A stretch of DNA of 64,000 nt from contig NZ_VANI01000010.1 in NCBI RefSeq assembly GCF_005771435.1, forward strand, positions 124,001 through 188,000. Direction: 5' to 3'. This document shows positions 16,283-40,347 of the stretch, one piece after another; positions within the stretch are counted from its first letter, which is position 1, and the number at the start of each line of letters is the position of its first letter. Origin of the DNA: Microbulbifer harenosus (GTDB lineage: Bacteria; Pseudomonadota; Gammaproteobacteria; Pseudomonadales; Cellvibrionaceae). The notes under the pieces are model-generated. The model worked only from the letters and a program-made list of their open reading frames with translations, ran no database searches and had not been told where the DNA came from. Position numbers and translations under genes: made by a program.

Positions 16283-16407
16283 TCGAAGGTGCCGATACCG
16301 GGTGCTTTCTTGTGAGACCTTCAAAAACATGGATGTTTTTGCAGAGCCCCCATGGATGGGTGCACGGCGTGTCTCACAAGAAAGCACTCGGTAGCGGAAC
16401 CGCCACT
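16283..16407 (+). repeat. Structured repeat copy 1 (subfamily A)
   Basis: An imperfect long palindrome between two convergent genes. Order: border TCGAAGG; outer 7-mer GGTGCCG pairing 6/7 with CGGAACC; a 22-bp arm (16297-16318) pairing with 16371-16392, one G-T only; hairpin 16322-16341 with loop ATGGA; hairpin 16347-16360 with loop ATGGA; right border GCCAC. The unpaired AT and AG steps between the outer 7-mer and the arm recur in copies 2 and 5. The surrounding gap (16240-16447) has no gene. Confidence 0.85.
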
Positions 16408-16447
16408 TAACCATCTACGAAGCACCCACCCACAATGCCCGAATTAA

Positions 16448-17143
16448 CTAAACCGCCAGATACTGCCGAATCAACCCATCATCCAGATTCGCCATCTTAT
16501 CCGCCGCCACCACCGAGCCTTTCTGCATCAAGCGAAACTCCCGCCCCACCCGACGCGCAAACCCCAACTTCTGCTCCACCAGAATCACCGTCAACCCATC
16601 CTCGGCATTAAGTTGCATCACCACATCCCCAATCTGGCGAACAATATTCGGCTGAATCCCCTCATTCGGCTCATCCAGAATCAACACCTTCGGATCGATT
16701 ACCAGCGCGCGGCCAATCGCCAACTGCTGTTGCTGGCCGCCCGACAAATCCCCCCCACGCCGATGCAACATATCCCTCAACACCGGAAACAACTCAAAAA
16801 TCCGCTCGGGAATCCTGCGTAAACCATCCCGCCGTGCCGGCAACCCGATCTGCAGATTCTCCTCCACCGTCAACAGCGGGAAAATGTCCCGTCCCTGAGG
16901 CACATAGCCGATGCCCATTTTGGCCCGCGCCTGCGCCGCACTGCCTTCAATGGGTCTTCCCTCAAACAGGATCTGTCCACTGCTCGCCGGCAACAGCCCC
17001 ATCAGACACTTCAACAGCGTCGTCTTTCCCGCCCCGTTGCGCCCCATAATGCAGGTGCAGGAGCCGCGCTCGATCTCCAGATCCAGATTCCACAGAATCT
17101 GCGTGCCGCCGTATTTCTGGTTTAGCTGTTCGATACGGATCAT
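16448..17143 (-). CDS. urtE: Urea ABC transporter ATP-binding protein UrtE
   Basis: Protein of 231 aa. ABC ATPase motifs: Walker A GRNGAGKT (about residues 34-41), the signature DLSGGQQQQLAIGRAL, Walker B VLILDEPNEGIQPN. The phrase DEPNEGIQPNIV is typical of UrtE rather than the related LivF. It is the second nucleotide-binding subunit of the high-affinity urea importer. It overlaps the urtD stop by ATGA and ends the porin-urtABCDE operon. With the urease cluster 13 kb away it completes a urea scavenging route. Confidence 0.93.
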   Translation of the reverse strand: MIRIEQLNQKYGGTQILWNLDLEIERGSCTCIMGRNGAGKTTLLKCLMGLLPASSGQILFEGRPIEGSAAQARAKMGIGYVPQGRDIFPLLTVEENLQIGLPARRDGLRRIPERIFELFPVLRDMLHRRGGDLSGGQQQQLAIGRALVIDPKVLILDEPNEGIQPNIVRQIGDVVMQLNAEDGLTVILVEQKLGFARRVGREFRLMQKGSVVAADKMANLDDGLIRQYLAV

Positions 17144-17985
17144 GCTCCCTCCCCCAGATACACCTCGACCACATCCCGGTTGTTCTGCACCTGATCCATG
17201 GTGCCCTCCGCCAGTACCGACCCCTGGTGCAGCACCGTCACCGTGCGCGCGATGCTGCGCACAAATTCCATATCGTGCTCCACCACAATCACCGTGTGTT
17301 TTCCGGCGAGCGACGTCAGCAGCTCCGCCGTGCGCTCCGCCTCTTCCGCCGTCATCCCCGCCACCGGCTCATCCACCAGCAACAGGCGCGGTTCGGCGGC
17401 GAGCAACATGCCGATTTCCAGCCACTGTTTCTGTCCGTGGGACAGTGCACCCGCCAGTTGATGGCGTGACGATTCAAGACCGATGATGCTCAACACCTCG
17501 TCGATGCGGTCGCGTTCACTGCCAGACAATCTTGCGGTGAGCGCTCGCCATACCCCCTTGCCGCAGCGCAGGGACAGCTCCAGATTGTGGAACACCGTAT
17601 GCGCCTCGAATACCGTCGGCTTCTGGAATTTGCGGCCGATGCCGAGCTGCGCGATTTCCGCCTCGTCGTGGGCCAGCAGATCGATATTCTGGCCGAACCA
17701 GGCACTGCCACTGTCGCAGCGGGTCTTGCCAGTGATGACATCCATGAGTGTGGTCTTGCCCGCGCCATTGGCGCCAATCAGGCAGCGCAGCTCGCCGTCG
17801 TTCACGTACAGGTTTAAATTGTTCAGTGCGCGAAAGCCGTCGAAGCTGACATTCAGATCCTCCAGATAGAGAATGATGTCTTTCGACACATCCACCATGC
17901 GCCGGCGCGGAATCAGGAAAGGCCAGGTGGTATCCCGGCGCATGACCTCACGCGCCTGCCCAGCCAATTGATGAATACTGTTCAC
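17140..17985 (-). CDS. urtD: Urea ABC transporter ATP-binding protein UrtD
   Basis: 281 aa. ATPase motifs: Walker A GANGAGKTT, the signature in ALSHGQKQWLEIGMLL, Walker B LLLVDEPVAGMTAEEAE. The LSHGQKQWLEI form of the signature is characteristic of UrtD. The core begins at YLEDLNVSFDGF (about residue 40), so there is an N-terminal extension of some 35 residues. The GTG start overlaps the urtC stop (GTGA), which supports it. UrtD is one of two cytoplasmic ATPases that drive urea import. Confidence 0.92.
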   Translation of the reverse strand: MNSIHQLAGQAREVMRRDTTWPFLIPRRRMVDVSKDIILYLEDLNVSFDGFRALNNLNLYVNDGELRCLIGANGAGKTTLMDVITGKTRCDSGSAWFGQNIDLLAHDEAEIAQLGIGRKFQKPTVFEAHTVFHNLELSLRCGKGVWRALTARLSGSERDRIDEVLSIIGLESSRHQLAGALSHGQKQWLEIGMLLAAEPRLLLVDEPVAGMTAEEAERTAELLTSLAGKHTVIVVEHDMEFVRSIARTVTVLHQGSVLAEGTMDQVQNNRDVVEVYLGEGA

Positions 17986-19175
17986 GCGCTTACCTCCCCC
18001 GCGGACAACTGGCCAGAATTTTCGCGCCAGCTTTTTTCACCGTGTTTTTCCCTGCGCATGCCGACGGCAAACCGCTCAAAGATTCCCGCCAGCCCGCGCG
18101 GCAGATACACAGTCACGATCACAAACAGCGCGCCCAGGGCGAACAGCCAGGCATCCGGCATCAGCGCGGTAAAACGGGTCTTGGCGTAATTCACCAGCAG
18201 CGCACCGACGATGGCGCCATACAGTGTGCCGCGGCCACCCACGGCCACCCACACCACGACCTCGATGGAGTTCAGCGGCGAGAATTCACCGGGATTGATG
18301 ATGCCCACCTGCGGTACATACAGCATGCCGGCCACCGCCGCGATCAGCGCGGAGTACACAAACAGCCACACCTTGTAGTGCTCGGTGCGGTAGCCGAGAA
18401 AACGCGCCCGCGCCTCTGCATCACGCACCGCAACGATCACGCGGCCAAGGCGCGACTGCACGATGGCGCGACTGGAGAGGAACGCAAGCACCAGAAGCAG
18501 AGTGGTCGCGAGCAGCAGTGCCACACGGGTGCCATCCGCCTGCAGATCAAAGCCGAGAATATCCTTGAAGTCTGTAAGACCGTTGTTGCCGCCAAAACCC
18601 ATTTCATTGCGGAAAAATGCCAGCATCAGCGCATAGGTCAACGCCTGGGTCATGATCGACAGATACACACCGGTAACCCGGGAGCGAAACGCCAACCAAC
18701 CGAAACCGAATGCCAGCAACCCTGGCACCAGCAGCGCCATCAGTACGGCAAACCAGAATTGATCCATGCCGAACCAGAACCAGGGCAGTTCCTGCCAGTT
18801 GAGGAACACCATAAAATCCGGCAGGTCGGCGTTACCATACACACCGCGGTCACCGATCTGACGCATCAGGTACATACCCATGCCGTAGCCGCCGAGGGCA
18901 AAAAATGCCCCGTGGCCGAGACTCAGAATGCCGCAATATCCCCAGATGATATCCACCGCCATGGCGAGCATGGCGAAGCACAGGTATTTGCCCATCAGGG
19001 TGATGGTGTAGGTGCTGACATACAACGGCGAGTCCGCCGGCAGCAGCAGGTTCGCCGCGGACATGGTAAGTGTTACCAGCAACAGAATGCCCACCAGCCA
19101 GGAGCTGCCGCGCCCGGGTTGGCGAAATTCGGCGAACCACTGGCCGAACGATCTGAGAGCGCTCAATGTATTCAT
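17982..19175 (-). CDS. urtC: Urea ABC transporter permease UrtC
   Basis: 397 aa from the ATG that overlaps the urtB stop (ATGA); an upstream in-frame start would lie wholly inside urtB. It is a branched-chain-type ABC permease with about 9-10 membrane helices, containing LCFAMLAMAVDIIWGYCGILSLGHGAFFALGGYGMGMY (about residues 62-100) and the late GGRGTLYGAIVGALLVN. These are UrtC/LivM features. It pairs with UrtB to form the membrane channel for urea. Confidence 0.92.
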   Translation of the reverse strand: MNTLSALRSFGQWFAEFRQPGRGSSWLVGILLLVTLTMSAANLLLPADSPLYVSTYTITLMGKYLCFAMLAMAVDIIWGYCGILSLGHGAFFALGGYGMGMYLMRQIGDRGVYGNADLPDFMVFLNWQELPWFWFGMDQFWFAVLMALLVPGLLAFGFGWLAFRSRVTGVYLSIMTQALTYALMLAFFRNEMGFGGNNGLTDFKDILGFDLQADGTRVALLLATTLLLVLAFLSSRAIVQSRLGRVIVAVRDAEARARFLGYRTEHYKVWLFVYSALIAAVAGMLYVPQVGIINPGEFSPLNSIEVVVWVAVGGRGTLYGAIVGALLVNYAKTRFTALMPDAWLFALGALFVIVTVYLPRGLAGIFERFAVGMRREKHGEKSWRENSGQLSAGEVSA

Positions 19176-20797
19176 TCCGCCGCCCTCCCGCGCTGGGGAA
19201 ACAGCCCTTTCGGCCGCTTCTGGATAAACAGAATCAGGCACACCAGCACGATGATATTCGCAAGCACTGCACCGGTAGCAGGCTCGAGGAATTTGTTCGC
19301 CACCCCCAGCGAGAAACCGCCCACCAAAGTGCCGAGCAGGTTGCCCACACCGCCAAATACCACCACCATGAACGAGTCGATGATGTAGGACTGGCCGAGG
19401 TTCGGCCCCACGTTCGTCAGCTGCGACAGCGCCACTCCCGCAACACCGGCGATACCGGAACCGAGGCCGAAGGTCATGGCATCCACCAGTTCCGTGCGCA
19501 CCCCCATGGCCTTGGCCATATCGCGGTTCTGGGACACCGCGCGCACATTCAGGCCGAGGGAGGATTTTTTAAGAATCGCCACCAGCGCGGCAAATACCGC
19601 CAGCGCGAACAGCAGGATGTACAGGCGGTTGTAGGTGAGGGAAAACACCGGATTAATTACCAGCGAACCGCTCATCCAGCCCGGCGTGACGACCTGCATA
19701 TTCAGTGGCGAGAAAATACTGCGCACGGCCTGCTGCAGGATCAGGCTGAGGCCGAAGGTGGCCAGCAAGGTTTCCAGCGGTCGCCCCTGCAGATGGCGAA
19801 TGACGCCGCGTTCGATCAGCACGCCCACGCCGCCGGAAACCAGAAAGGCCGCCGGCACCGCCAGCAACAGTGAGTATTCGATGGCACCGGGCATCAGCTG
19901 CTGGATCACGTAAGTGGTATAAGCCCCCAGCATGATCATTTCGCCGTGGGCCATATTGATGACGCCCATCACACCGAAAGTGATGGCGAGGCCGATGGCC
20001 GCGAGCAACAGCACCGAGCCCAGGCTCAGGCCGAAAAACAGTTGCTCCATCTGCCCATAAAATTCCACGCGCCCGGCAATCTTATCCAGCGCCTTTTGCG
20101 CGGCGGCCTTTACCGCAACCTCCTGCTCGCCGTCGTCGTTCAGCAGCCGCTGCAACTGGTTGCGCACCGGCGCCTCCAGCCGCCCACTCATGATTTCAAT
20201 GGCAGCAAGCCGCTCTTCAAGCACGCGGCTGTCGCGCAGTTGCACCATGGCGTCGGCGAGCGCAATCACCTCCTGTACTTGCGCACTGGCACCCGCCGTC
20301 TCCGCGCTGCGCAGCAGGCGCATATTCTGGCTGCTCAGGTCATCCAGGATCGAAAGCACTGCGGCATGTTGCTGCTCTTCGCTGCCGTGCAGGAGATCGA
20401 TACGCGCGATGGCGTCGCGCAACTGGCTGCGCAGACGGTTATTCACTCGGATTTTTTTGAGATCCCGGGAAGCGAATGCAGCAAGTTTTCTGTCATTGAA
20501 AATCTCACGGCCGACAAGCCTTCCCGCACGGTCTTTTGTTACCGCGACAAGTTTGTCGCTCTCTTTGACGGCGTAGAGTTCGCCCGCCAGCATGGCCTCA
20601 AACAGTGGACGCATTTCCGCCCCGCCGGCCTGTTCCAGTTGCTGTACCAGCTCGCCGGTTTTCTTCAGGCTGGCATTCGGGATTTGCTGAAGCAGCTCGC
20701 CCACAGCAGGTGCTGTGGGCGGTGTTTGCGCCAGCGGACTGCCGGCTGGCAGCAGCAGGGCCGCCACCAGCCAAAGGCTGTGTAGTAAAAATTTCAC
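19172..20797 (-). CDS. urtB: Urea ABC transporter permease UrtB with N-terminal periplasmic extension
   Basis: 541 aa with a GTG start and GGAG 6 nt upstream. Residues 1-23 look like a signal peptide; residues about 24-245 form a soluble, helical domain; the permease proper starts near FGLSLGSVLLLAAIGLAITFGVMGVINMAHGEMIMLGAYTTY (LivH-like, about residues 250-295). A long N-terminal part is normal for UrtB of many proteobacteria, but its function is not established. It follows urtA by 53 nt and overlaps urtC. Confidence 0.92.
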   Translation of the reverse strand: MKFLLHSLWLVAALLLPAGSPLAQTPPTAPAVGELLQQIPNASLKKTGELVQQLEQAGGAEMRPLFEAMLAGELYAVKESDKLVAVTKDRAGRLVGREIFNDRKLAAFASRDLKKIRVNNRLRSQLRDAIARIDLLHGSEEQQHAAVLSILDDLSSQNMRLLRSAETAGASAQVQEVIALADAMVQLRDSRVLEERLAAIEIMSGRLEAPVRNQLQRLLNDDGEQEVAVKAAAQKALDKIAGRVEFYGQMEQLFFGLSLGSVLLLAAIGLAITFGVMGVINMAHGEMIMLGAYTTYVIQQLMPGAIEYSLLLAVPAAFLVSGGVGVLIERGVIRHLQGRPLETLLATFGLSLILQQAVRSIFSPLNMQVVTPGWMSGSLVINPVFSLTYNRLYILLFALAVFAALVAILKKSSLGLNVRAVSQNRDMAKAMGVRTELVDAMTFGLGSGIAGVAGVALSQLTNVGPNLGQSYIIDSFMVVVFGGVGNLLGTLVGGFSLGVANKFLEPATGAVLANIIVLVCLILFIQKRPKGLFPQRGRAAE

Positions 20798-20850
20798 TAC
20801 CTTCTCCGCAATTGTGTTACCGCGTTACATGTGACATCAGGCGCGAGCGG

Positions 20851-22137
20851 TCACTTGGCCTGACCGCTACAGGCCTTGGATTCGGTGTTGTAGTTGCCGC
20901 ACTTGATCGGTGCGGTCCAGTCGGCGATCAGATCTTTGGAGCCCGGCAGGAAGTCGGACCAGGCGTCGCCGGCGACGACATCATCGGTGGCCCACACCAC
21001 TTCAAACTGACCGTTGTCCTGGATCTCGCCGATAAATACCGGCTTGGACAGATGATGGTTTTTGTTCATTTTCGCCACGCCACCGGTCAGGTTTGGAAAC
21101 TCGATGCCGATCATCGCCTGCTCCACCGCATCCACATTCGTGGTTCCGGCCTTTTCCACCGCCTTGGCCCACATATTGAAACCGATATAGGTGGCTTCCA
21201 TGGGGTCATTGGTCACGCGCTTTTCGTCGCCGATGAATTTCTTCCACTGCTGCACGAAATACTCGTTGGCTTCGCTATCGATGCCCTGGAAGTAATTCCA
21301 CGCCGCCAGGTGGCCTACCAGCGGGCCGGTATCGATACCGGAGAGTTCCTCTTCACCTACGGAGAAGGCCACTACCGGAATGTCTTCGGAGCTGACACCC
21401 TGGTTGGCGAGTTCCTTGTAGAAGGGCACGTTGGCATCGCCGTTGATGGTGGACACTACCGCGGTTTTCTTGCCGGCACTGCCGAACTTCTTGATATCGG
21501 AAACGATGCTCTGCCAGTCGGAGTGGCCGAAGGGGGTGTAATTGACCAGGATGTCCTCTTTCGCCACGCCCTTGGATTCCAGGTAGGCTTCCAGAATCTT
21601 GTTGGTCGTGCGCGGATAGACATAGTCGGTACCGGCGAGCACCCAGCGCTCCACTTCCAGATCCGACATCAGGTAATCCACCGCGGGAATCGCCTGCTGG
21701 TTCGGTGAGGCACCGGTGTAGAACACATTCTTCGAGGACTCTTCCCCTTCGTACTGCACCGGGTAGAACATCAACCCGTTCAGTTCCTCGATCACCGGCA
21801 ACACGGACTTGCGCGATACCGATGTCCAGCAACCGAAGATCACGTCTACTTTGTCCTTGGTGAGCAGTTCGCGGGCCTTTTCCGCAAACAGTGGCCAGTC
21901 GGAGGCCGGGTCTACCACCACCGCTTCCAGTTTCTTGCCCAGCAGGCCGCCCTTGCGGTTCTGCTCGTCCACCATCATCAGCACCGTGTCTTTCAGCGTG
22001 GTTTCACTGATAGCCATGGTGCCGGACAGGGAGTGCAGCACGCCCACTTTAATGGTTTCCGCGGCGAGCACGGCGCTGCTGATCACGCTGGTGCCGGCAG
22101 CGAAGGCGAGGCCGGCAACGAATTTCTTCAGTTTCAT
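20851..22137 (-). CDS. urtA: Urea ABC transporter substrate-binding protein UrtA
   Basis: 428 aa. The signal peptide (about residues 1-25, ending AVLAAE) is followed by a type I periplasmic binding fold: IKVGVLHSLSGTMAISETTLKD, VVDPASDWPLFAEKA, and IFGCWTSVSRKSVLPVIEE, which are characteristic UrtA blocks. The ATG has GGAG at a 7-nt spacing. It captures urea (and possibly short amides) in the periplasm for UrtBCDE. It lies 30 nt downstream of the porin gene. Confidence 0.93.
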   Translation of the reverse strand: MKLKKFVAGLAFAAGTSVISSAVLAAETIKVGVLHSLSGTMAISETTLKDTVLMMVDEQNRKGGLLGKKLEAVVVDPASDWPLFAEKARELLTKDKVDVIFGCWTSVSRKSVLPVIEELNGLMFYPVQYEGEESSKNVFYTGASPNQQAIPAVDYLMSDLEVERWVLAGTDYVYPRTTNKILEAYLESKGVAKEDILVNYTPFGHSDWQSIVSDIKKFGSAGKKTAVVSTINGDANVPFYKELANQGVSSEDIPVVAFSVGEEELSGIDTGPLVGHLAAWNYFQGIDSEANEYFVQQWKKFIGDEKRVTNDPMEATYIGFNMWAKAVEKAGTTNVDAVEQAMIGIEFPNLTGGVAKMNKNHHLSKPVFIGEIQDNGQFEVVWATDDVVAGDAWSDFLPGSKDLIADWTAPIKCGNYNTESKACSGQAK

Positions 22138-22167
22138 ACATTTGCTCCAGATTCTTGCGGGATTGGT

Positions 22168-23328
22168 TTACAGCTGGACTTGCATGCCGAGGCTCAGCAC
22201 ATCGACGTCGGCGCCGGCGTAGCCGGACGCGTTGGCATCACCGGACACATAGTTGAAGTTGAGCCGGGTGTTGTGGCCATTGACCACATAGTTGAGACCG
22301 AACTCGGTGGCGCTGCTGCTGGCGGCGTCGGAGGGACTGTTTTCCACCAGCCGCACGTAGGGCTGGAACTTGCCGGGGCCAACGTCAGTGGGGAAAAGGT
22401 AGGCGGCGGTGGCAAAGGCGGACTCGCCGTCGAACAGGCAGAAGCAGTCGTCGGTGAGCGGTTGCGAAGCCAATGTGTAATCCGCATCGAAGCTTTTGTA
22501 TTCGGCTTCCAGCGTTACCACACCGCCGCCAGTGAGTACGGTTTCCGACAGCAGGTCGATGGTCCAGCCGGAGAAATCCCCCGCCTCGAACTCACTGCCC
22601 ACACCGTCTTCCTGGCTCTGCAGGGAGAGTGCGAGGGTCAGGATATTGCCGAGCCCACCGTAGTAGGTGGAGCTGGTGTAGTAGCCGGGGTTGGCTTCCA
22701 TATTCAGGAAGTTGTAGGCAAAGCGCGCCGCGTAGAGTGGATTGTCGTCCTGGTTGCTGTACTCATCCACGCCGTAGAAAGTGCCCGCGGCATACTGGAA
22801 CTTGCCGGCGGTACCCCAGAAGGTGACCCCCTCATCGCGCCCGATCAACCCCGCCTGTCCGCTTTGGTCGGAGGCATAGAGAGGCTGGCGATACTGGTTC
22901 CAGCTGAGGCCGTAGAAGGGCCCGCTCATTTCGATGCGGTCCGCCGGGGTGAGCATGCGCCCTACCCAGATGTTGAACCCGGGCGAGAACTCAAACTGCG
23001 CGATCGCATCCAGAACGTCGGCGGTATCGCCGTCGCGCTGCTGCAGGTTGAAAGTAAATTTCACATTGTCGTGCAGCGAACCACTGGTGTAGATACGGAT
23101 ATCCGGCAGGGTAAATTCACTGTCGCCGTCCACCGACTGGAACTGCCCACGGAACCCGGCGCCGACGCTGAACGTCTGCCCACCCTCGGATTCAAACGAG
23201 GCCCCGGCCACCGCGGACAGCGGCATCACCGCGCCCGCCATCACGGCCAGCGTACACACACGGCTGAGTAAACGCTGTTTCGACTGAGTTTCGGCTTGCA
23301 TTCGAGCACCCCATGACACCTTCTCCAT
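22168..23328 (-). CDS. Outer-membrane porin-like protein leading the urt operon
   Basis: About 386 aa from the ATG with GAGGGG at a 6-nt spacing (a further ATG 27 nt in, MQAETQSKQ, is also possible). A signal peptide ends near PLSAVAGA. The mature part is beta-barrel-like with alternating hydrophobic residues, starts FSVGAGFRGQFQSVDGD, contains EFSPGFNIWVGRMLTPADR (phosphate-selective-porin-like layout), and ends in VLSLGMQVQL. I cannot name a closer family. As first gene of the urea importer operon it may let urea through the outer membrane; this is inference from position only. Confidence 0.75.
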   Translation of the reverse strand: MEKVSWGARMQAETQSKQRLLSRVCTLAVMAGAVMPLSAVAGASFESEGGQTFSVGAGFRGQFQSVDGDSEFTLPDIRIYTSGSLHDNVKFTFNLQQRDGDTADVLDAIAQFEFSPGFNIWVGRMLTPADRIEMSGPFYGLSWNQYRQPLYASDQSGQAGLIGRDEGVTFWGTAGKFQYAAGTFYGVDEYSNQDDNPLYAARFAYNFLNMEANPGYYTSSTYYGGLGNILTLALSLQSQEDGVGSEFEAGDFSGWTIDLLSETVLTGGGVVTLEAEYKSFDADYTLASQPLTDDCFCLFDGESAFATAAYLFPTDVGPGKFQPYVRLVENSPSDAASSSATEFGLNYVVNGHNTRLNFNYVSGDANASGYAGADVDVLSLGMQVQL

Positions 23329-23521
23329 GTCCATCCCCTCTTGCGAATCGTTGGTATCTATTGGTAATTTTCTGGCGATACCGATTATTCGACCCGGGGC
23401 ACAGGGGGACCATACGCACAATGGCGCGGGCAACTACGTCATTTGACGGTTTTCAGTCGCAAGGGTAGGCATACACTAAGGGTCAATGACATCGAGGTTC
23501 GATATATCCACTTCAGGTGGG

Positions 23522-23646
23522 CTGAAGGGGGCGATATCTGGTGCAGGTTCTCGAGACCTTCCGCGAGAGGGACCTCGCGGAAGAGCCCCCATGGATGGGT
23601 TTACGGCGTGTCTCGAGAACCTGCACCAGATAGCGTTCCCGCCACC
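23522..23646 (+). repeat. Structured repeat copy 2 (subfamily A)
   Basis: Lies in the divergent gap between the porin-urt operon and the hybrid kinase gene. Outer 7-mer GGGGGCG pairs with CGTTCCC (two wobble pairs); the 22-bp arm 23536-23557 pairs perfectly with 23610-23631 and shares little sequence with copy 1; hairpin 23559-23582 has AGGGA in its loop; hairpin 23586-23599 has ATGGA; right border GCCACC. The linker CCCCCATGGATGGGT and ACGGCGTGTCTC are shared with copy 1. The rest of the 388-bp gap (23329-23716) has no gene. Confidence 0.85.
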
Positions 23647-23716
23647 TTTATCGAATCCGGTATTCTTGTTGCATCAAAAAACAGAATGACGAGAAACAGG
23701 CGGTAGGCAGCACCCG

Positions 23717-28152: not shown

Positions 28153-28167
28153 CAATGGCACGCGCGG

Positions 28168-29974: not shown

Positions 29975-30019
29975 GATTCTTCCCTAGTTTTCGGGTTCGG
30001 GAAGCAGTCTAGCGGTGGG

Positions 30020-30100: not shown

Positions 30101-30147
30101 GATGGTTTTTTCGCATTTATTGACAGATCTCAGCAAGGAGGGTTGCA

Positions 30148-30501: not shown

Positions 30502-30556
30502 CCGGCACTGGTGAAACGGGCTTGCCTCGCCCTCGTGTAGATAGCATCGCCGCCAT

Positions 30557-30766: not shown

Positions 30767-30803
30767 GTTGGTCTCTACTTCCAGATATTCCTGATGGCTG
30801 AAT

Positions 30804-31445: not shown

Positions 31446-31479
31446 ATTTATTGTTTCCTCAGTTTACGCTCGGGAATAT

Positions 31480-32154: not shown

Positions 32155-32665
32155 GCTGCTCGTGGCGATGATGCAGGGAGTGCGAATGGCCGCTGTCGTG
32201 TCCATGGGAGTGGCCATGGCCGCCACGGTAGGCGCCAGATTCCGGTATAAATACCGCCAGTTCTTTCTCCAGCGCGAGCCCGAGCAGCTCCAGCATTTCC
32301 TCCAGCACATGATCCGGGGTGATGCGCAGCCAATATCCGCCCTCGTCATTATTTGCGATCTGCAGCTTCACATGGCGGTTGCCCAGGTGATAACAGGCGC
32401 GACTGAAGGTGATCCAGTTGTCGCAGCGGGCGGTGGTCACCAGCTCTTCGGCGCCGACCACCTTAATGAATTTGCCACATTCGCTCTGCAGTAATTCACC
32501 CACCAAGAGCGGTTTGCCGCGCTCAAGAAAAATACGCACTTCGCTACCGTCATTGGCGGAGGTGCGCAGGCGGCCGCGATCCCGCTGCAGATGATCCAGG
32601 GTTATGCAGCAGTCTGCAGATATTTCGGGCTTGACCCCGAGCCGTTGGTAGACGTCCAGCGTCAC
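32135..32665 (-). CDS. ureE: Urease accessory nickel metallochaperone UreE
   Basis: 176 aa. N-terminal peptide-binding domain with LTLDHLQRDRGRLRT-like sequence (here ITLDHLQRDRGR), and a central metal-binding domain with ACYHLGNRHVKLQI and the conserved HVLEEMLELLG. The C-terminus is a long His-rich tail (about residues 148-176, 13 histidines among Gly, Ser, Asp and Glu residues), as in Klebsiella UreE, suited to storing several Ni2+ ions. It donates nickel to UreG. The gene follows ureC by 19 nt. Confidence 0.95.
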   Translation of the reverse strand: MTLDVYQRLGVKPEISADCCITLDHLQRDRGRLRTSANDGSEVRIFLERGKPLLVGELLQSECGKFIKVVGAEELVTTARCDNWITFSRACYHLGNRHVKLQIANNDEGGYWLRITPDHVLEEMLELLGLALEKELAVFIPESGAYRGGHGHSHGHDSGHSHSLHHRHEQHEHHHH

Positions 32666-32684
32666 GAATCAGTCCTCAAAAAAA

Positions 32685-34400
32685 TTAAAACAGGCAGTAG
32701 CGCTGAGCCAAAGGCAATTCCCTTGCGGGCTCGCATGTCAGCAACTGGCCATCGGCGCGCACTTCATAGGTTTGCGGGTCTACGCTGACCTCCGGTTGCC
32801 AATCGTTCAGCAACATGTCTTTCTTGCCGATGGTACGGGTGTTCTTGCACGGCGCCAGGGTACGGCTGAGGCCGAGTTTTTTCGCCACATCATTTTTTAC
32901 CGCTGCCTGGGACACAAACGTGAGTGAGGTTTTTGCCGCGGCCAGCCCGAGGGCGCCGAACATGGGGCGGTAGTGCACTGGTTGCGGCGTGGGGATAGAG
33001 GCATTCGGATCACCCATGGGTGCGGCGGCGATCATGCCGCCCTTCAGGATCATCGACGGCTTAATGCCAAAGAAGGCCGGTTTCCACAGCACCAGATCGG
33101 CGAATTTTCCCACTTCGATCGAGCCCACCTCATGGGCGATGCCATGGGTAATGGCCGGGTTGATGGTGTACTTGGCGATATAGCGGCGCGCGCGGAAATT
33201 GTCGGCTCCGGCCGTATCGCCTTTCGTGTCCTCGGACAAAGTTCCGCGCTGTATTTTCATTTTGTGCGCGGTCTGCCAGGTTCGGGTGATCACCTCGCCC
33301 ACGCGCCCCATGGCCTGCGAATCCGACGCGATCATGCTGAAGGCGCCGAGATCGTGAAAAATATCTTCCGCGGCGATGGTTTCCTTGCGGATGCGGGAAT
33401 CTGCAAAGGCAATATCTTCAGGGATACTGGTGTCCAGATGGTGGCACACCATCAGCATATCCAGGTGCTCATCCACGGTATTGACGGTATAGGGGCGCGT
33501 GGGATTGGTCGACGACGGCAGCACGTTGGAAGACGCGCACGCCTTGATAATATCCGGCGCGTGGCCGCCGCCGGCGCCCTCGGTGTGGTAGGTGTGAATG
33601 GCGCGGCCTTTGAAGGCATTCATGGTGTCGTCCACAAACCCGGATTCGTTCAGGGTGTCGGTGTGGATGGCTACCTGCACGTCGTACTTGTCGGCAACCG
33701 TCAGGCAGCAGTCGATGGCCGCCGGCGTGGTGCCCCAGTCTTCGTGCAGTTTCAGGCCGCAGGCGCCCGCTTCCAGCTGCTCCTCGATAGCGTGTGGCAG
33801 ACTCGCATTGCCCTTACCGAGAAAGCCGAAATTCATCGGCAGGCTGTCGGTGGCCTGCAGCATCTTGCCGATATTCCACGGTCCCGGGGTGCAGGTAGTG
33901 GCATTGGTGCCGGTGGCCGGGCCGGTGCCGCCGCCGATCATGGTGGTGACGCCGGACATCAGCGCCTCTTCCACCTGCTGTGGGCAAATGAAATGAATGT
34001 GCGCGTCGATGGCACCGGCGGTGAGAATGGAACCTTCACCGGCAATGATTTCCGTTCCCGGGCCGATGATAATATCCACCCCTTCCTGCACATCGGGATT
34101 TCCCGCTTTGCCGATGCCGGAAATGCGCCCGGCCTTTACCGCCACATCCGCCTTCACCACGCCCCAGTGGTCCAGTATCAGCGCATTGGTAATCACCAGG
34201 TCCGGCGTCTGCGCCGAAGGACGCTGGCTCTGGCCCATGCCGTCGCGGATCACCTTGCCACCGCCAAATTTCACTTCGTCACCGTAGCGGGTAAAATCCT
34301 TTTCCACCTGCAACCAGAGTTCGGTATCGGCGAGACGCACACGGTCGCCCGTGGTGGGACCGAACATCTGGGCATAGCTTTCGCGATCCATACGGCTCAT
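32685..34400 (-). CDS. ureC: Urease alpha (catalytic) subunit UreC
   Basis: 571 aa, the usual size. Nickel ligands and catalytic residues are visible: HIHFICPQQ (first His pair), the carbamylated lysine in [34 protein letters not shown], the catalytic His in [20 protein letters not shown] (flap region), and the Asp in [10 protein letters not shown]. It hydrolyses urea to ammonia and carbamate in the cytoplasm. The start overlaps the ureB stop by ATGA. All essential residues are present, so the enzyme should be active when nickel is supplied. Confidence 0.97.
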
Positions 34401-34750
34401 GTTTCAACGACTCCCACTTCATCCAACGCGCCCATTACCTCGCCGCGAAAACCGTACACCACGCGCGCACCGGCGTAGGCCACCAACTCCACCTCGCGCC
34501 CCTGCCCCGGTTCGAATCGCACCGCGGTGCCAGACGCGATATTCAGGTGAAACCCCCGCGCCTGTTTACGCTCGAAACGCAGCGCCGGATTGACTTCGTA
34601 AAAGTGATAGTGGGAACCCACCTGCACCGGGCGATCGCCGATGTTTTCCACCCGCAGAGTGCGGGTCTCGCGGCCAACATTCAGTTCGATATCGCCCTTG
34701 CCTGACGCAACCTGGATTTCTCCGGGAATCATTTTTTTCTCCGCGGCCAT
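34397..34750 (-). CDS. ureB: Urease beta subunit UreB
   Basis: 117 aa. The family signature [18 protein letters not shown], the conserved [22 protein letters not shown] and [21 protein letters not shown] blocks are all present. It is a structural subunit of the (UreABC)3 trimer. The ATG immediately follows the ureA stop (TGA-ATG), and its own stop overlaps ureC. Confidence 0.96.
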
Positions 34751-35053
34751 TCAGCTGATCGGGTTGTGCACGGTGACAAGCTTGGTGCCATCGGGAAACG
34801 TGGCCTCTACCTGCACCTCGTGAATCATTTCCGCCACACCATCCATGACCTGGTCCACGCGCAGGATCTCGCGGCCGTAACCCATCAACTCCGCGACACT
34901 TTTGCCGTCCCGCGCGCCCTCCATGATTTCCATAGTGATGAGCGCCACCGCCTCCGGGTAATTCAGCTTCAGCCCTCGCGCCAACCGCCGCTCCGCCAGT
35001 ACCGCGGCGGTAAAGATCAGCAGCTTGTCTTTTTCTCTCGGCAGTAATTCCAT
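34751..35053 (-). CDS. ureA: Urease gamma subunit UreA
   Basis: 100 aa from [20 protein letters not shown], the canonical start; the frame extends upstream but not with family sequence. [20 protein letters not shown] and the end TVHNPIS are standard UreA features. It is the smallest structural subunit. It lies 28 nt after ureD. Confidence 0.96.
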
Positions 35054-35081
35054 GCACAAACCTGCAGTGAAAGTTTTTAAT

Positions 35082-35981
35082 TCAGGTGCGCCAGATGCGC
35101 GGCGCACAGGGCTCGCGCCCAAGCAGTTCCGGGCGCAGCTGCGCCCACAAGGCCGTCAGCAGCCGGCGCACGTCAAAGGCACAATGCCCCAGCACACGCA
35201 CCACGAACATGTCCGTCACCTGCGAGATCCCCGCGAGACAACGCTGCCCGTGCCCGGCAATGATTTCCCGGCAGCTCGTCATCAACTCCTCCGGCAAGGT
35301 TGCAGCAAACGGTCCCATCACCAGCAAGCCGTTAACCGGAAAATTCCTCAGCCCGGCGCCCGCGTTCAGGACATAGCGGTCCGCACCGCCGATCCGCAGG
35401 GATTCCACCAACAGCGGAACCCCCGCGCGAAAAATTTCCAGCCGCTGCGTCAACCGGCCGCTGGCAAACGGTTCATCACAGGCCGGCAACCCCAGCGATG
35501 TGATCTCCCACCCCGCAAATCTTCCACCGGGAGCGATATCCACTCGCGTGTGCATCGCGCCATTGGCTCCGGGATAGGCAATATTCTCCAGCGGCAACCA
35601 CTCCAGGCTCGCCCCGGCCGCCACCTGCAAGACCGTATTCTGCCCCTGCAACAACCCGTCCGGACGGGCCCGGTAAACCCGCCCCGCCCCCGTCGTCGTC
35701 ACCAGCGCCGCCGCGTTCTCACGCACCTCCACACGGATATCCAGCCGGTCCCCCGACACCAGCCCCCCGGGCGGATGCAACAGATACACATGGGCAAGGT
35801 CCCGGCCCTCCGGGAAAAACGGCTTCTGCACATACAGCGGTCCGCTGTGCCGGTTGCGTGCCAGCCGGCAACCGCGCGCGTCGCGCTCGAACCACAGCTC
35901 CAGATCCGCATGCCAGCGACTGGCCTGCGTGCCCTGCGCTTCGGCAATGTTGGGAATATCGACAATGGCGAGTTGATTCAT
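35082..35981 (-). CDS. ureD: Urease accessory protein UreD (UreH)
   Basis: 299 aa. Conserved blocks: [33 protein letters not shown] (about 50-82; key part [10 protein letters not shown]), [15 protein letters not shown], and a C-terminal [11 protein letters not shown]. UreD is the scaffold that binds apo-urease and recruits UreF/UreG. It is the first gene of the ureDABCEFG operon, so the operon promoter should lie upstream of 35981. Confidence 0.94.
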
Positions 35982-36235
35982 CTACAGACCAGCAGCTCAA
36001 ACCCGCCGCCCGCATTGAAAGCCGGAGCCACAGGATGGATTCAGAGCCAATGGAAACAAGATTCCCCGGGAAGGGGTATGCGTCATTTGACGTAGATTGT
36101 GAAGGGAGCCCGTGCGCAGTGGACGGAGAGAATATGGGCAGGATGAACGAGGGAGTTTCATCCTGACAAACCAGGCCTGATTTTTTCTGGATTAGGTTGA
36201 AAGCAAAGATTGCTAACGAAGTAAATTACTTGAAT
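35982..36235. other. Upstream region of the urease operon
   Basis: A non-coding stretch between the ureD start and repeat copy 3. I see no convincing gene. It must contain the promoter of the leftward urease operon, but I cannot mark a clear -35/-10 pair or a nitrogen-control site. Confidence 0.4.
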
Positions 36236-36388
36236 TGAAGACAGAGTGCTGGGTATCTGTTTTCGAAAGCGTCGGCAACAGGGGCCGAAGGCGCCGCGAT
36301 GGAGCGGCCGGGCCATGTTGCCGACGCAGCGTACAGGGATGTATTCACGGTGGTTTCGAAAACAGATACCCAGTGTTCTGGCGCCACC
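36236..36388 (+). repeat. Structured repeat copy 3 (subfamily B, expanded hairpin)
   Basis: Border TGAAG; outer 7-mer GACAGAG pairs 6/7 with TTCTGGC; a perfect 20-bp arm 36249-36268 with 36354-36373; TG/TG step between them. The first inner hairpin is expanded: stem GCGTCGGCAACA (36269) pairs with 36316-36327 and contains a further hairpin at 36293-36308 whose loop carries ATGGA. The second hairpin TACAGGGATGTA is at 36332-36343. Right border GCCACC. It lies between ureD and the glutamine amidotransferase gene. Confidence 0.85.
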
Positions 36389-36411
36389 AAACCTGCTCAA
36401 AACACCAAAAA

Positions 36412-37119
36412 CTACGAAGCGCTTTTCAAAAACGCGAGCATCCACCGCGCCACTGCACTCGCATGAATATCGTTCTGCAGGGAATCCTTGCCCCTCTCCA
36501 GCATCTCGTCTCCGAACATTTCGCGGCGCAGCTCCATCAGGCTGTGGGAATAGGGTTTGGTGAATTCCGGATGCGCCTGCATGGTGAGCATGTGCTCACC
36601 CACCTGCAACATCGCATAGGGACAGAAATCACTGGACGCAATCACCTTCGTCCCCGGCGGCAGCGCCGTCACCTGATCCTGGTGGCTCACCAACAGATTA
36701 AACTGGCCCTGCGGCTCCACCATCCACACCGGCGTCTCCTGCACCTCATAGCTGTGCACCCCAATGCCCCAACCCTTCTCCGACTTGCGCGCCTCACCAC
36801 CCAGTGCGTGCGCAATCAACTGGTGGCCGAAACAGACCCCCAGTGTCGGCTTCTCGCGCCGGTGCAGCTCGCGCACGAACTCCATCAGCGGCGCAATCCA
36901 CGGCTTATCGTCGTAAACACCCGTCTTGCTACCGGTAATGAGGTAAGCGTCCACCTCGTCGACATCCTGCGGGTAGTGCCCGTGCTGCACCTCATAGGTC
37001 ACAAACTCCAGCGACGGCTCCTCACGCTGCAGCAGCGACGCAAACATCTCCGGATATTCGCCAAACTCCCCCACCAGCTGGGGGCGGACATCGTCGGTCT
37101 TCAGAACACCTATCTTCAT
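36412..37119 (-). CDS. Class I glutamine amidotransferase-like protein
   Basis: 235 aa from MKIGVLKTDDVRPQLV; upstream in-frame codons lack family sequence. The nucleophile elbow is GVCFGHQLIAHALGG with Cys96, and the catalytic His is in MQAHPEF, with a Glu two residues on. This resembles the GMP-synthase-like amidotransferase domain used as a stand-alone protein (YfeJ/GuaA-type), including gamma-glutamyl hydrolases of polyamine breakdown. There is no synthetase partner next to it, so the acceptor is unknown. It could hydrolyse a gamma-glutamyl compound. Divergent from ompW. Confidence 0.88.
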   Translation of the reverse strand: MKIGVLKTDDVRPQLVGEFGEYPEMFASLLQREEPSLEFVTYEVQHGHYPQDVDEVDAYLITGSKTGVYDDKPWIAPLMEFVRELHRREKPTLGVCFGHQLIAHALGGEARKSEKGWGIGVHSYEVQETPVWMVEPQGQFNLLVSHQDQVTALPPGTKVIASSDFCPYAMLQVGEHMLTMQAHPEFTKPYSHSLMELRREMFGDEMLERGKDSLQNDIHASAVARWMLAFLKSAS

Positions 37120-37157
37120 TTTACTTACCCATTTCCAGAGACAACTGACAGCCAAAC

Positions 37158-37169
37158 ATGTGATCACAT
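37158..37169. promoter_or_regulatory. 12-bp palindrome between divergent genes
   Basis: ATGTGATCACAT is a perfect palindrome in the gap between the amidotransferase and ompW genes. It resembles a CRP half-site pair but without the 6-bp spacer, so CRP is unlikely. It may be an operator for an unknown dimeric regulator or a chance match. Confidence 0.35.
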
Positions 37170-37304
37170 TATTGCGCCCATCCCCGTGACCCTCAAGCGG
37201 GTCCGGACTGACACCAGATAAAACGCGAAAACATCGCAGATTTAAAGGCCCGGCTAGAATCAAAGTGTTGCGCCTCACCCCCGGGGAGTTCAAGGAGCGG
37301 ATTC

Positions 37305-38060
37305 ATGAAAACAGCCAGCAAGGCGACCTCCGTCATCGCGGCCACACTGGCCACCATCCTCGGCGCCAGCCCCTGCCTGGCGGATTACGAACAGGGCGAC
37401 TTTGTCCTGCGTGTCGGCTGGGGCTATGTGGACCCCGACGACGCATCCGACTGGCTCGCCATCGACGGCGTTGGCCAACTGCCCGACACCCGCGTGTACG
37501 TGGACACTGGTGACAGCGCCACCATTACCGCCACTTGGCTGTTCGCCGACCACTTCGGCCTCGGCCTGTTGGCGGCACTGCCATTCGAGCATGACCTGGA
37601 AGTGGGGGGGCTGCCCGACCCTCTCAATCCCGGCGCCCGCCTCGGCCAGGTGGACCTCGGCAGCCTGGAGCATCTCCCCGCCACACTGACGGTGCAGTGG
37701 TTCCCGGTGTGCAAGGAATCCTGGGTACAGCCCTATGTGGGATTCGGAGTGAACTTTACCACCTTCAGCAACGAGGAAATCAGCAGCACCGCCGACGAAT
37801 ACTTCACGGACGCTCTCGACGCCTGGGCGCCCGCAGACCTAAGGCTGGACGACTCCTGGGGACTCGCCGGCGAACTCGGCATAGACATACTGTTCGGCCG
37901 CGAAAGCAACTGGCTGTTCAATGCCGCGGTGTGGTATCTGGACATCGACAGCGACGCCAAGATTTATTTCCGCAGCAGACAGGGGTACGAAACACGGATC
38001 AGAACCGATGTAGACATAGACCCCTGGGTATATTCCGTCGGTCTCGGCTATAAGTTCTGA
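37305..38060 (+). CDS. OmpW-family outer-membrane protein
   Basis: 251 aa. A signal peptide ends at CLADYEQ. The mature protein starts with the OmpW opening QGDFVLRVGWGYVDPDD, continues with TATWLFADHFGLGLLAALPFEHDL, LPATLTVQWFP and YVGFGVNFTTF, and ends in a barrel-type YSVGLGYKF with terminal Phe. OmpW proteins form eight-stranded barrels with a hydrophobic channel for small molecules. AAGGAG ribosome site. Two cysteines (in CKES and the signal region) are not functionally informative. Confidence 0.92.
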   Translation: MKTASKATSVIAATLATILGASPCLADYEQGDFVLRVGWGYVDPDDASDWLAIDGVGQLPDTRVYVDTGDSATITATWLFADHFGLGLLAALPFEHDLEVGGLPDPLNPGARLGQVDLGSLEHLPATLTVQWFPVCKESWVQPYVGFGVNFTTFSNEEISSTADEYFTDALDAWAPADLRLDDSWGLAGELGIDILFGRESNWLFNAAVWYLDIDSDAKIYFRSRQGYETRIRTDVDIDPWVYSVGLGYKF

Positions 38061-38355
38061 CAGATTCCAGCGGAAGCACCGCGCCCGCCCCTCTGCCTCG
38101 CCGTTCCGCCGCACTCGACCGCTTACCGTGGCGCCGCTGAATCACATTCTCAACGCCACACGTCGCTTCCGCCGCCGCTGCACTGGCACTCAGACCTTTT
38201 TCAACCTAAGAATTGAAGCGATCATTGCTGAAAATTCACGAATTTCGAGAATAAACACCGGTTCTCCATCCACAAAAACTATCGCTGTCATATTTTGTGT
38301 ATGATGGCGCGCATCTGACTACTTTTTGGCCTGCGGGCGACACTCAGGAGAAATA

Positions 38356-39957
38356 ATGACAACTTCCGCTTCCCCCAGTGACGTACAGACCGCCGGCTCT
38401 GGCAAGAAAACCGCATTTACCCGCTTCCTCGATACCGTCGAGTGGCTCGGCAACCTGTTGCCCCACCCGATTACCCTGTTTGCGATGTTTGCCCTGGGCG
38501 TGGTGGTCCTGAGCGGCATAGCCTCCTATTTCGGTCTGTCTGTCGTCGACCCGCGCCCTGAAGGCGCCGCCGGTCGCTCCGCCGATGGGGTTATCCACGT
38601 GGTAAACCTGCTATCCGGTGAAGGATTGCGCACCATCGTCACCTCACTCGTCACCAATTTCACCGGCTTTGCACCGCTGGGCACGGTGCTGGTGGCACTG
38701 CTCGGCGTGGGTATTGCCGAGCATTCGGGGCTGCTTTCGGCCGCGGTGCGCGGCATGGTGCTGCAGGCGTCCAAGCGCACGGTGACGGTGATCGTGGTGT
38801 TCGCGGGCATCATCTCCAATACCGCGTCCGAACTCGGCTATGTGGTACTGATCCCGATGGCGGCGATGATCTTCCACTCCCTCGGCCGCCACCCACTGGC
38901 GGGCCTCGCCGCCGCCTTTGCCGGGGTGTCCGGAGGCTACAGCGCCAACCTGTTCCTCGGCACCGTGGACCCGCTGCTGTCCGGTATCACCGAGTCCGCC
39001 GCGCACATGGTCGATCCCAACTATGTGGTAGGCCCGGAGGTAAACTGGTTCTTCATGATCGCCAGCACCTTCCTGATCACCGCTGTCGGCAGCTGGGTGA
39101 CGTTGGCGATCGTCGAACCTAAGCTGGGCAAGTACGACAACAGCGAGGCTTCGGTGGACCTGTCCCAGGACAAGATGACCGACCTGACCGACACCGAAAA
39201 GCGCGGCTTAAAATTTGCCGGTATTGCGGTACTGGGAGTATGCAGTTTGCTGGCACTCACCATCGTTCCGGAGTGGGGCGTGCTGCGCAATCAGGCCACG
39301 GGCGAAGTCGCCGGCTCACCATTCCTGAAAGGTATTGTGGCGCTGATCGTGGTGTTCTTTGCCATCCCGGGCTTTGTCTATGGCAAGGTGGTGGGCACCA
39401 TAAACAACGACCGCGATGTGATCGACGCCATGTCGAAGAGCATGAGCACCATGGGCATGTACATTGTGCTGGTGTTCTTTGCGGCGCAGTTCGTGGCCTT
39501 CTTCTCCATGACCAACCTGGGCACTATTTTCGCGGTGCTGGGTGCGGAAGCGCTGCAGAGCATCGGCCTCACCGGTCCGCTGCTGTTCTTCTTCTTTATC
39601 CTGATGTGCGGTGTGGTGAACCTGAGCCTGGGCAGCGCGTCTGCGCAGTGGGCGGTGACTGCGCCGATCTTTGTACCGATGCTGATGCTGGTAGGCTACG
39701 CCCCTGAAGTGATCCAGGCGGCCTACCGGATTGGGGATTCGGTGACCAATATCATCACGCCGATGATGAGCTATTTCGGCCTGATCGTGTCCTTTGCCAC
39801 CCGTTATAAGAAAGATCTCGGCATCGGGACGCTGATTGCGACGATGATTCCGTACTCCATATTCTTCTTTGTGGGTTGGACGGCGCTGTTTTTCCTGTGG
39901 GTGTTTGTGGCGGGGCTTCCGGTTGGGCCTGGGGCTGCTACTTACTTCTCCATGTAA
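38356..39957 (+). CDS. AbgT-family transporter (p-aminobenzoyl-glutamate type)
   Basis: 533 aa from the ATG with CAGGAG at a 6-nt spacing; an upstream TTG in frame is less likely. About 11-13 membrane helices. Conserved AbgT blocks are seen: RFLDTVEWLGNLLPHPITLF (residues about 18-37), GVSGGYSANLFLGTVDPLL, MGMYIVLVFFAAQFVAFFSMTNLG, and GSASAQWAVTAPIFVPMLML with YRIGDSVTNIITPMMSYFGLI. Family members import p-aminobenzoyl-glutamate, or export sulfonamides in pathogens. An M20 amidohydrolase of the kind that cleaves such amides lies 1.6 kb downstream, beyond a GH43 gene and two repeats. Use of folate breakdown products is plausible but unproven. Confidence 0.92.
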   Translation: MTTSASPSDVQTAGSGKKTAFTRFLDTVEWLGNLLPHPITLFAMFALGVVVLSGIASYFGLSVVDPRPEGAAGRSADGVIHVVNLLSGEGLRTIVTSLVTNFTGFAPLGTVLVALLGVGIAEHSGLLSAAVRGMVLQASKRTVTVIVVFAGIISNTASELGYVVLIPMAAMIFHSLGRHPLAGLAAAFAGVSGGYSANLFLGTVDPLLSGITESAAHMVDPNYVVGPEVNWFFMIASTFLITAVGSWVTLAIVEPKLGKYDNSEASVDLSQDKMTDLTDTEKRGLKFAGIAVLGVCSLLALTIVPEWGVLRNQATGEVAGSPFLKGIVALIVVFFAIPGFVYGKVVGTINNDRDVIDAMSKSMSTMGMYIVLVFFAAQFVAFFSMTNLGTIFAVLGAEALQSIGLTGPLLFFFFILMCGVVNLSLGSASAQWAVTAPIFVPMLMLVGYAPEVIQAAYRIGDSVTNIITPMMSYFGLIVSFATRYKKDLGIGTLIATMIPYSIFFFVGWTALFFLWVFVAGLPVGPGAATYFSM

Positions 39958-39997
39958 TTCGGGTTTTATGGGTTTTCGGTGGTTTTGACTGACCTCC

Positions 39998-40119
39998 GGT
40001 GGCGGGAAAGCACTGGGTAACCCTTTTTGAAACCGCCATAGATACGTCCCTGTAGGCTGCGTCGGAAACATCCCTGTTTCCGACGCTTTCAAAAAGGGTT
40101 ACCCAGCACTTTCCCTTCA
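39998..40119 (-). repeat. Structured repeat copy 4 (subfamily B, inverted)
   Basis: Minus-strand copy. Read on that strand: border TTGAAGG; outer 7-mer GGGAAAG pairs perfectly with CTTTCCC; TG/TG step; a perfect 20-bp arm (40087-40106 with 40013-40032); hairpin at 40059-40086 with AGGGA in the loop; hairpin TACAGGGACGTA at 40043-40054; right border GCCACC at 39998. Together with copy 5 it fills most of the 520-bp gap (39958-40477) between abgT and a GH43 gene, which has no gene. Confidence 0.88.
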
Positions 40120-40224
40120 ATTCACAGAACTGCACTTCGTTAGCTTTTGCTTCCCAGGCTTTTTCTCTCAACTCCCGCTCTTTGCCTCTCCTCACTCTTT
40201 GCTTACGAAGCACTTTGCACTGAA

Positions 40225-40347
40225 TCGAAGGCAGAGATCCGGGTATGGGTTTTCAAAAGCGTCGGAAACAGGGATGTTTCCGACGCAGCCTACAGGGATG
40301 TATTCATGGCGGTTTTGAAAACCCATACCCGGAGCTCTGCCGCCACC
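40225..40347 (+). repeat. Structured repeat copy 5 (subfamily B)
   Basis: Border TCGAAGG; outer 7-mer GGCAGAG pairs perfectly with CTCTGCC; AT/AG step; a perfect 20-bp arm 40239-40258 with 40313-40332; hairpin 40259-40286 with AGGGA in the loop; hairpin TACAGGGATGTA at 40291-40302; right border GCCACC. The inner part is nearly identical to copy 4, which lies 105 bp away in the opposite direction, yet the arms and outer 7-mers differ. Confidence 0.9.

Follow-up and report, generated by a model that had tools for sequence, protein, structure and literature searches.

In this study we describe a family of structured intergenic repeats, found through five copies that lie in a 64,000-nucleotide stretch of the Microbulbifer harenosus genome (contig NZ_VANI01000010.1, positions 124,001 to 188,000; hereafter the window). 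Each copy is about 120 nt long and consists of a long stem, whose arms change in sequence from copy to copy and stay complementary, and of two short hairpins that present an invariant GGA. The five copies had been predicted from the letters of the window, a prediction that overlooked two A-N-GGA-N hexaloops, the relation to the RNA family TwoAYGGAY, and the size and breadth of the repeat family. We found at least 153 copies in this 4.67 Mb genome and further copies in other gammaproteobacteria; they are placed behind stop codons, have been gained and lost between species, and are under selection on the strand that carries the GGA. With slightly more confidence than doubt, and going by sequence comparison, we regard them as dispersed RNA-forming repeats that act as binding sites of the global regulator CsrA/RsmA, either as a decoy or as a site at the 3′ end of mRNAs.

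According to this explanation, the transcribed GGA strand would fold into a near-perfect rod of up to ~30 bp with two short A-N-GGA-N hexaloop hairpins, and the hexaloops, usually 23–24 nt apart, would have a geometry that one CsrA/RsmA dimer could bridge. Taken together the copies would form a distributed CsrA/RsmA decoy, and those in sense orientation would serve as a 3′-end mRNA site. The repeat would spread through insertion after genes, its copies would undergo exchange, and correction of one arm with the other as template would keep the changing arms complementary. If this is true, a genomic repeat in dispersed copies serves as the binding site of a global regulator, with ~300 such sites in one genome, and its copy number varies widely between species of one genus; titration of CsrA could then be tested by comparing repeat-rich with repeat-poor Microbulbifer species, and RNAs of the TwoAYGGAY type would gain a context.

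Structure and Covariation of the Repeat

All five window copies were read in the sequence and were recovered at 89 to 127 bits by R1, a covariance model built from 18 copies of the M. harenosus genome, four of them window copies. The predicted plan proved right: a GAAG border, an outer stem, a 2-nt step, an arm of 20–22 bp, two hairpins and a GCCAC(C) border. The outer stem, whose 7-mers had been described as covarying pairs, is present but imperfect, with (by eye) one G.A in copy 1, two G.T in copy 2, and one each of A.G and G.T in copy 3.

That the copies form one family whose structure is kept under sequence change was then borne out far beyond the window. We aligned 31 copies, namely window copies 1 and 5 and, from a class-level search of gammaproteobacteria, the top-scoring copy in each of 29 other genomes. 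In the RNAalifold structure of this alignment, 42 of the 45 base pairs change on both sides with pairing kept. Pairing holds in 92.0% of cells, compared with 56.4% after shuffling; none of 500 shuffles reaches the observed value, and the covariation score is 0.894 against 0.208 (the structure was derived from the tested alignment, which is a somewhat favourable bias, but the gap to the shuffles is far larger). When the partner is slid by 1–3 columns, pairing falls to 37.6–43.5%. As an example of arms that stay complementary through sequence change, the repeat is unusually clear.

Thirteen of the 129 alignment columns are invariant: the GGA of loop 1 and that of loop 2, the C closing loop 1, the C and G closing loop 2, the A opening loop 2, an AG separating the two hairpins, and a single C following them. 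GGA is present in 31/31 copies in each loop, with the A ahead of it kept in 30/31 (loop 1) and 31/31 (loop 2), and the remaining loop positions vary. The second base of loop 1 is G in 21 copies and T in 10; the base before GGA in loop 2 is G in 22, T in 7, A in one and C in one, and the base after it is T in 24, C in 3, G in 3 and A in one.

CsrA-Type Motifs and Strand Selection

The minimal rule for CsrA/RsmA sites is A-N-GGA-N. In our detailed set of 139 own-genome copies (E at most 1e-7; from the window and 80 further stretches, best-ranked R1 matches first), 102 have two or more such motifs, and in 84 of these the distance from first to last motif is 23 or 24 nt. This is within the range of 10–63 nt over which a CsrA dimer bridges two sites, with an optimum of 18 (PMC3856055). 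The same source gives RUACARGGAUGU as the consensus of CsrA from systematic evolution of ligands by exponential enrichment (SELEX) and requires the GGA to be single-stranded; the exact consensus GUACAGGGAUGU occurs in 34/139 own copies. The loops are thus of the kind that characterizes CsrA/RsmA-binding RNAs, that is, GGA in hairpin loops in the context A-N-GGA-N or RUACARGGAUGU. On the reverse strand, 50/139 cores have no GGA and 83/139 have one.

Mismatches within the arms distinguish the two strands. Among 28 class-level copies, G.T was found 13 times against a single A.C (p 0.0018) and A.G/G.A six times against no C.T/T.C, the others being G.G (2), A.A (1) and T.T (1). Among 138 own-genome copies the counts are 60 G.T against 3 A.C and 69 A.G/G.A against no C.T, although it is the class-level count that carries weight, since own copies are not independent and their fixed 2-nt step yields many A.G by descent. 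Counting stops at two consecutive mismatches, with one class-level copy (L210) and one own copy dropped as too short; it supersedes looser counts that had included the step (own G.T 217, A.C 29) or had run into the flanks (class G.T 33, A.C 22, p 0.18). Selection on the duplex only would make G.T and A.C equally common on the GGA strand, and the large excess of G.T indicates that this strand works as a single strand, either as RNA or as single-stranded DNA (ssDNA).

CsrB and RsmZ, the best comparison for a decoy, are made from one or a few dedicated small RNA (sRNA) genes and have many sites each. The repeat resembles such decoy RNAs in that GGA hairpins fitting the CsrA consensus would stand on one RNA; it differs in spreading its predicted sites, two to a copy, over many scattered copies.

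Relation to TwoAYGGAY

The nearest Rfam family is TwoAYGGAY (RF01731, clan CL00106), which has been described as a candidate RNA found in gammaproteobacteria, Clostridiales and metagenomes of the human gut (PMC2864571) and as a predicted ligand of CsrA (PMC4333381). The two share an outer stem, two GGA hexaloop hairpins, AG between them and CGG after them. That our repeat is merely a sub-threshold branch of TwoAYGGAY is a possibility which we take seriously while doubting it. In its favor are the common plan, an E of 1.6e-5 for the best copy and 11 own-genome matches with an E limit of 10, of which the lowest-scoring (L019) looks unrelated by eye. However, the best copy scores 40.3 bits against a cut-off of 43 (window copy 1 scores 36.6), none of the 11 matches reaches this cut-off, and none of the 20 class-level loci L184–L203 passes the cut-off of any Rfam family (L204–L212 fall outside that set). 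At the second loop position G or T predominates instead of C or T, so the loops mostly read A-[GT]-GGA-Y and not A-Y-GGA-Y. In addition, the repeat has near-perfect variable arms of 20–30 bp and is dispersed in at least 153 copies in its own genome, often as head-to-head pairs, and high-copy dispersal is not mentioned in the accessible parts of PMC2864571 and PMC4333381. Since the cut-off is not reached, the family is likely a relative of TwoAYGGAY and not a member of it.

No described family had been recognized for the five copies, and this stands insofar as no Rfam family matches above threshold, but it had missed the sub-threshold likeness to TwoAYGGAY. An Rfam match, one of the outcomes named beforehand as refuting, exists only below threshold. 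The literature on TwoAYGGAY, on CsrA and repeats, on the CsrA consensus, on Microbulbifer palindromes, on REP/RAYT elements (see below) and on the core strings, with few subscription papers covered, yielded no named family of such repeats. Rfam matches to microRNAs were discarded as chance matches to long hairpins, often found on both strands.

Distribution across Genomes

In the M. harenosus genome, all 150 scored candidates match R1 at E 3.5e-6 or better, and three more copies were present in fetched stretches. A search of related genomes with a covariance model, as had been proposed, found the family in 38/40 Microbulbifer genomes (E 1e-6): 26 genomes have at least 30 copies, three have 11–16 and 11 have 5 or fewer, the counts being taken from the best 89 candidates per genome and hence lower bounds at the top. 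Across gammaproteobacteria, R1 matches were found in 67/369 genomes (own genome included) and 60/272 genera at E 1e-5, in a search that used the best 9 candidates per genome and stricter filters than that of the genus. Among 80 named loci of ~20 kb, searched at E up to 1, only those of Microbulbifer sp. HZ11 (L024) and Vibrio hannami (L074; 55.0 and 35.4 bits) matched.

BLAST gave no match to window copy 5 in phages or in E. coli genomes, none to window copy 1 in plasmids, and none to the L184 core in plasmids and phages. One contig among viral_contigs has a 26-base core pattern and reaches only 26.5 bits with R1. Carriage on phages or plasmids is not supported by these queries.

Placement behind Genes

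Gene context was taken from a simple codon-usage gene caller, leaving out one copy at the end of a stretch (n = 138). None of the 138 copies overlaps a called gene, so the intergenic position seen in the window holds for the whole set. Relative to the element's own direction, both neighbouring genes run the same way at 56 copies and the opposite way at 46; the neighbours converge at 32 copies and diverge at 4. At 134/138 copies, at least one gene ends towards the element. The 70 single copies have a median distance to the facing stop codon of 44 nt for the upstream gene (44 cases) and 36 nt for the downstream gene (34 cases). There are 34 close pairs, 30 of which have their GAAG ends facing each other (head to head; spacer 49–119 nt, p 6e-6), and none of the 34 lies between diverging genes.

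Both this position after stop codons and the missing orientation bias discussed below would be accounted for if the copies were two-way terminators or 3′-end stabilisers, with the long stem terminating or shielding transcripts that reach it from either side and with incidental GGA loops. We consider this quite unlikely. It agrees with the placement of the 134 copies and the short distances of the singles, and also with one site compared between species: beside the AbgT gene, where the own genome and genome G026 have a pair of copies, the element is absent from M. mangrovi and from genomes G024, G020 and G039, which by eye show an ordinary terminator instead. In a home-made scan, terminator-like signals within 110 nt were found at 14/110 element-bearing 3′ ends vs 29/126 others (p 0.044), but this depletion is weak, and such a signal lies within 330 nt at 27/110 element-bearing ends. 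Moreover, in G028, G031 and G038 the AbgT site lacks the element and, by eye, any obvious terminator as well, the stem is not followed by a T-run, and the invariant GGA in both loops and the conserved junction are left unexplained. Nor are the five copies unrelated intrinsic terminators, the outcome that the original prediction had named as fatal to itself: they have a core in common, lack a T-run and show covariation across the family.

Gain, Loss and Change of the Arms

Site occupancy was judged by eye and confirmed with R1 on 20 site stretches and on L023. Empty sites, which the original prediction had proposed to seek, do exist. The site of copy 2 is vacant in G020, G028 and G031, with 20 bases between matched flanks vs 173 in the query, and in G024 and G039 it holds an element in the opposite orientation with other flanks. 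At the site of copy 3, the own genome has a subfamily B element with an insert, G024 a subfamily A element with an insert, G039 and G020 subfamily A and G038 subfamily B, and the stretches of G028, G031, G026 and G001 have no element. Judged by the AbgT protein, the close relatives of the window are eight Microbulbifer loci (85–94% identical). At the site of copies 4 and 5, an orthologous pair is present only in G026. No clear target-site duplication was seen at the compared sites.

The orthologs in G026 show how the arms change. In that of copy 5, a T-A pair of the arm has become G-C and a C-G pair of the hairpin-2 stem has become G-C, and neither swap can go via G.U; loop 1 has lost one base and changed a T to C, loop 2 has changed a T to C and the step a G to T, and GGA is kept in both loops. 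The ortholog of copy 4 has one damaged arm, so that arm correction would be imperfect. In 28 close pairs of own-genome copies, no copy entering more than one pair, 65 changes are two-sided and 52 one-sided; of the 65, 58 link two Watson-Crick pairs, 30 of these 58 by transversion. This pattern favors templated correction, in which one arm guides the repair of the other, or exchange between copies, over compensation in slow single steps. In the G024 copy at the site of copy 3, the left arm resembles that of G039, and the right arm, which belongs to another type, does not match it, as expected from exchange in the core. The earlier conclusion that compensating stems exclude simple recent copying was overstated in this respect, as arms appear to change through exchange as well.

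These observations bring to mind the repetitive extragenic palindromic (REP) sequences and bacterial interspersed mosaic elements (BIMEs) associated with REP-associated tyrosine transposases (RAYTs). One source lists high copy number, extragenic position, inverted pairs and complementary changes as REP traits, and GTAG/GTGG as REP starts (PMC2817692). Our repeat is likewise an extragenic, palindromic element of high copy number, with close inverted pairs and complementary changes. It could be, as the main rival to the CsrA explanation, a REP/BIME-like non-autonomous DNA element, whose GGA strand folds as ssDNA and is moved by an HuH (Y1) or other transposase, with the GGA loops and GAAG foot as recognition marks and no RNA role; we hold this to be unlikely. 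It would fit the 30 head-to-head pairs among 34, the empty sites, the opposite orientations at one site, the copy number that varies across the genus, and also the single-strand selection. On the other hand, the transposase tracking copy number that had been proposed as a check was not found: Y1_Tnp matches occur in 37/40 genus genomes and do not follow the repeat, as compared by eye over the 40 genomes with Y1_Tnp taken as a whole and repeat counts from the best 89 per genome. Genomes G011 (49 copies), G021 (45) and G035 (16) have no Y1_Tnp match, and G036 has 8 Y1 matches and 3 copies; the three own Y1 loci (L020–L022, 3.3 kb each) have no R1 match at E up to 0.1. The repeat is also larger than REP sequences, with two internal hairpins with conserved loops and a GAAG foot instead of GTAG/GTGG, and clear target-site duplications are lacking at the compared sites. 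Finally, an A-N-GGA-N loop with a free N is what the CsrA rule describes. The two natures first proposed, mobile palindrome and structured RNA, are both still in play.

CsrA Genes and the Weight of the CsrA Explanation

A csrA gene was matched in 35/40 Microbulbifer genomes. At class level, CsrA was found in 62/67 repeat-bearing genomes vs 251/302 others (p 0.059), and, with the comparison limited to genomes of at least 90% completeness and no more than 5% contamination, in 55/56 with the repeat vs 225/258 without (p 0.015).

We also observed 5–19 csrA matches in 8/40 Microbulbifer genomes (G002, G003, G005, G008, G009, G013, G029 and G036), seven of which have 11 or fewer R1 copies and one of which (G005) has 47; the contrast is weak and may be phylogenetic or due to repeats too diverged for R1.

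Several findings weigh against a role of the repeat in CsrA/RsmA binding. The association over all genomes reaches only p 0.059 and could be phylogenetic. Of the 40 Microbulbifer genomes, G017, G018, G026, G027 and G037 have no CsrA match and G007 a partial one, the csrA locus of G007, G018, G027 and G037 being only partly covered by the searched sequence; G017 and G026 are repeat-rich. Five repeat-bearing class genomes (G047, G108, G139, G235 and G382) also have no CsrA match, and G235 is 98% complete. As for the motifs, 37/139 own copies have one full A-N-GGA-N or none, many of them with a shortened AGGAT loop, and in four own copies an additional GGCCG..AGCGGCCGG hairpin is inserted in loop 1 or loop 2, with the GGA at its tip kept in two and lost in two. 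Loop conservation may be somewhat overstated, since R1 was trained on GGA-bearing copies and the class copies are the best-scoring ones, although GGA contributes only a small part of R1 scores near 80–135 bits. The single-strand selection is equally compatible with ssDNA, and no sigma-70-like promoter was found around copies 4 and 5 in the sequence scan of 39900–40500. The main difficulty for a cis-acting RNA is that placement follows gene ends and orientation does not follow transcription: single copies between tandem genes show no bias (32 sense vs 22 antisense, p 0.22), whereas a cis-acting RNA of the 3′ untranslated region would be expected to prefer sense.

A bolder version of the CsrA explanation, which we think unlikely, sees the repeat as a CsrA decoy of selfish or domesticated nature. 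It would multiply in the chromosomes of gammaproteobacteria, selection on its folded GGA strand would maintain hundreds of docking hairpins per genome, and these would set the level of free CsrA. Some lineages may have answered such a decoy repeat by multiplying csrA.

Subfamilies, Flanks and the Copies of the Window

Two main forms of the repeat exist in the own genome, A (GAGCCCCCAKGGATGGGT..ACGGCGTGTCTC) and B (GCAGCSTACAGGGAYGTATTCAYRGCG). Among the own copies listed, hairpin 1 consists of interchangeable modules with unrelated stems, several of which bear one and the same loop, and other copies have a short GGGGGCGCCTAGCTC-type insert after hairpin 2. The features of the window copies are given in Table 1.

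Table 1. Repeat copies, their loops and the spacer between copies 4 and 5 in the window.
Feature	Position	Strand	Sequence or R1 score
Copy 1, subfamily A	16285-16406	+	R1 126.7 bits
Copy 1, both hexaloops	16329-16334 and 16352-16357	+	ATGGAT (sequence)
Copy 2, subfamily A	23524-23645	+	R1 126.4 bits
Copy 2, first hexaloop	23568-23573	+	AGGGAC
Copy 2, second hexaloop	23591-23596	+	ATGGAT
Copy 3, subfamily B, with additional hairpin (~30 nt) within hairpin 1	36236-36387	+	R1 89.1 bits
Copy 3, apical loop	36299-36304	+	ATGGAG
Copy 3, hexaloop	36335-36340	+	AGGGAT
Copy 4, subfamily B, left partner of head-to-head pair	39999-40119	-	R1 109.6 bits
Copy 4, loop	40070-40075	-	AGGGAT
Copy 4, loop	40046-40051	-	AGGGAC
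Spacer, facing GAAG ends of copies 4 and 5	40120-40226	no strand	
Copy 5, subfamily B, right partner of pair	40227-40346	+	R1 113.2 bits
Copy 5, loop of hairpin 1	40270-40275	+	AGGGAT
Copy 5, loop of hairpin 2	40294-40299	+	AGGGAT

Conservation extends weakly beyond the stem, on the left as TTACGAAGT..AATTCGATGC, fading ~29 nt from the stem (136/139 copies placed), and on the right as GAACC..GCTAAGAAGC.CC, fading ~23 nt from it (129/139 placed). In the spacer of copies 4 and 5, GCTAACGAAG (minus) and GCTTACGAAG (plus) represent this weakly conserved left extension of each copy; a sequence scan of 39900–40500 found no terminator. A TACGAAG-like motif of the same direction flanks many own copies on both sides, ACGAAG being present within 80 nt upstream of 52/136 placed copies and downstream of 19/129. 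Own copies C6, C42 and C67 (L111, L113, L121) are near-identical in the core and in 20-odd nt on either side, which suggests that the copied unit may be larger than the stem. In copy C42 (L132:4503-4675), hairpin 2 is interrupted by a different palindromic sequence, so the repeat in turn serves as a target for other insertions.

Elsewhere in the window, positions 33965-34248 match the Rfam family 5_ureB_sRNA at 71 bits, antisense within an open reading frame on the minus strand (32685-34400) which we take to be probably the gene of the urease large subunit. The match likely reflects coding similarity rather than a counterpart of the Helicobacter sRNA.

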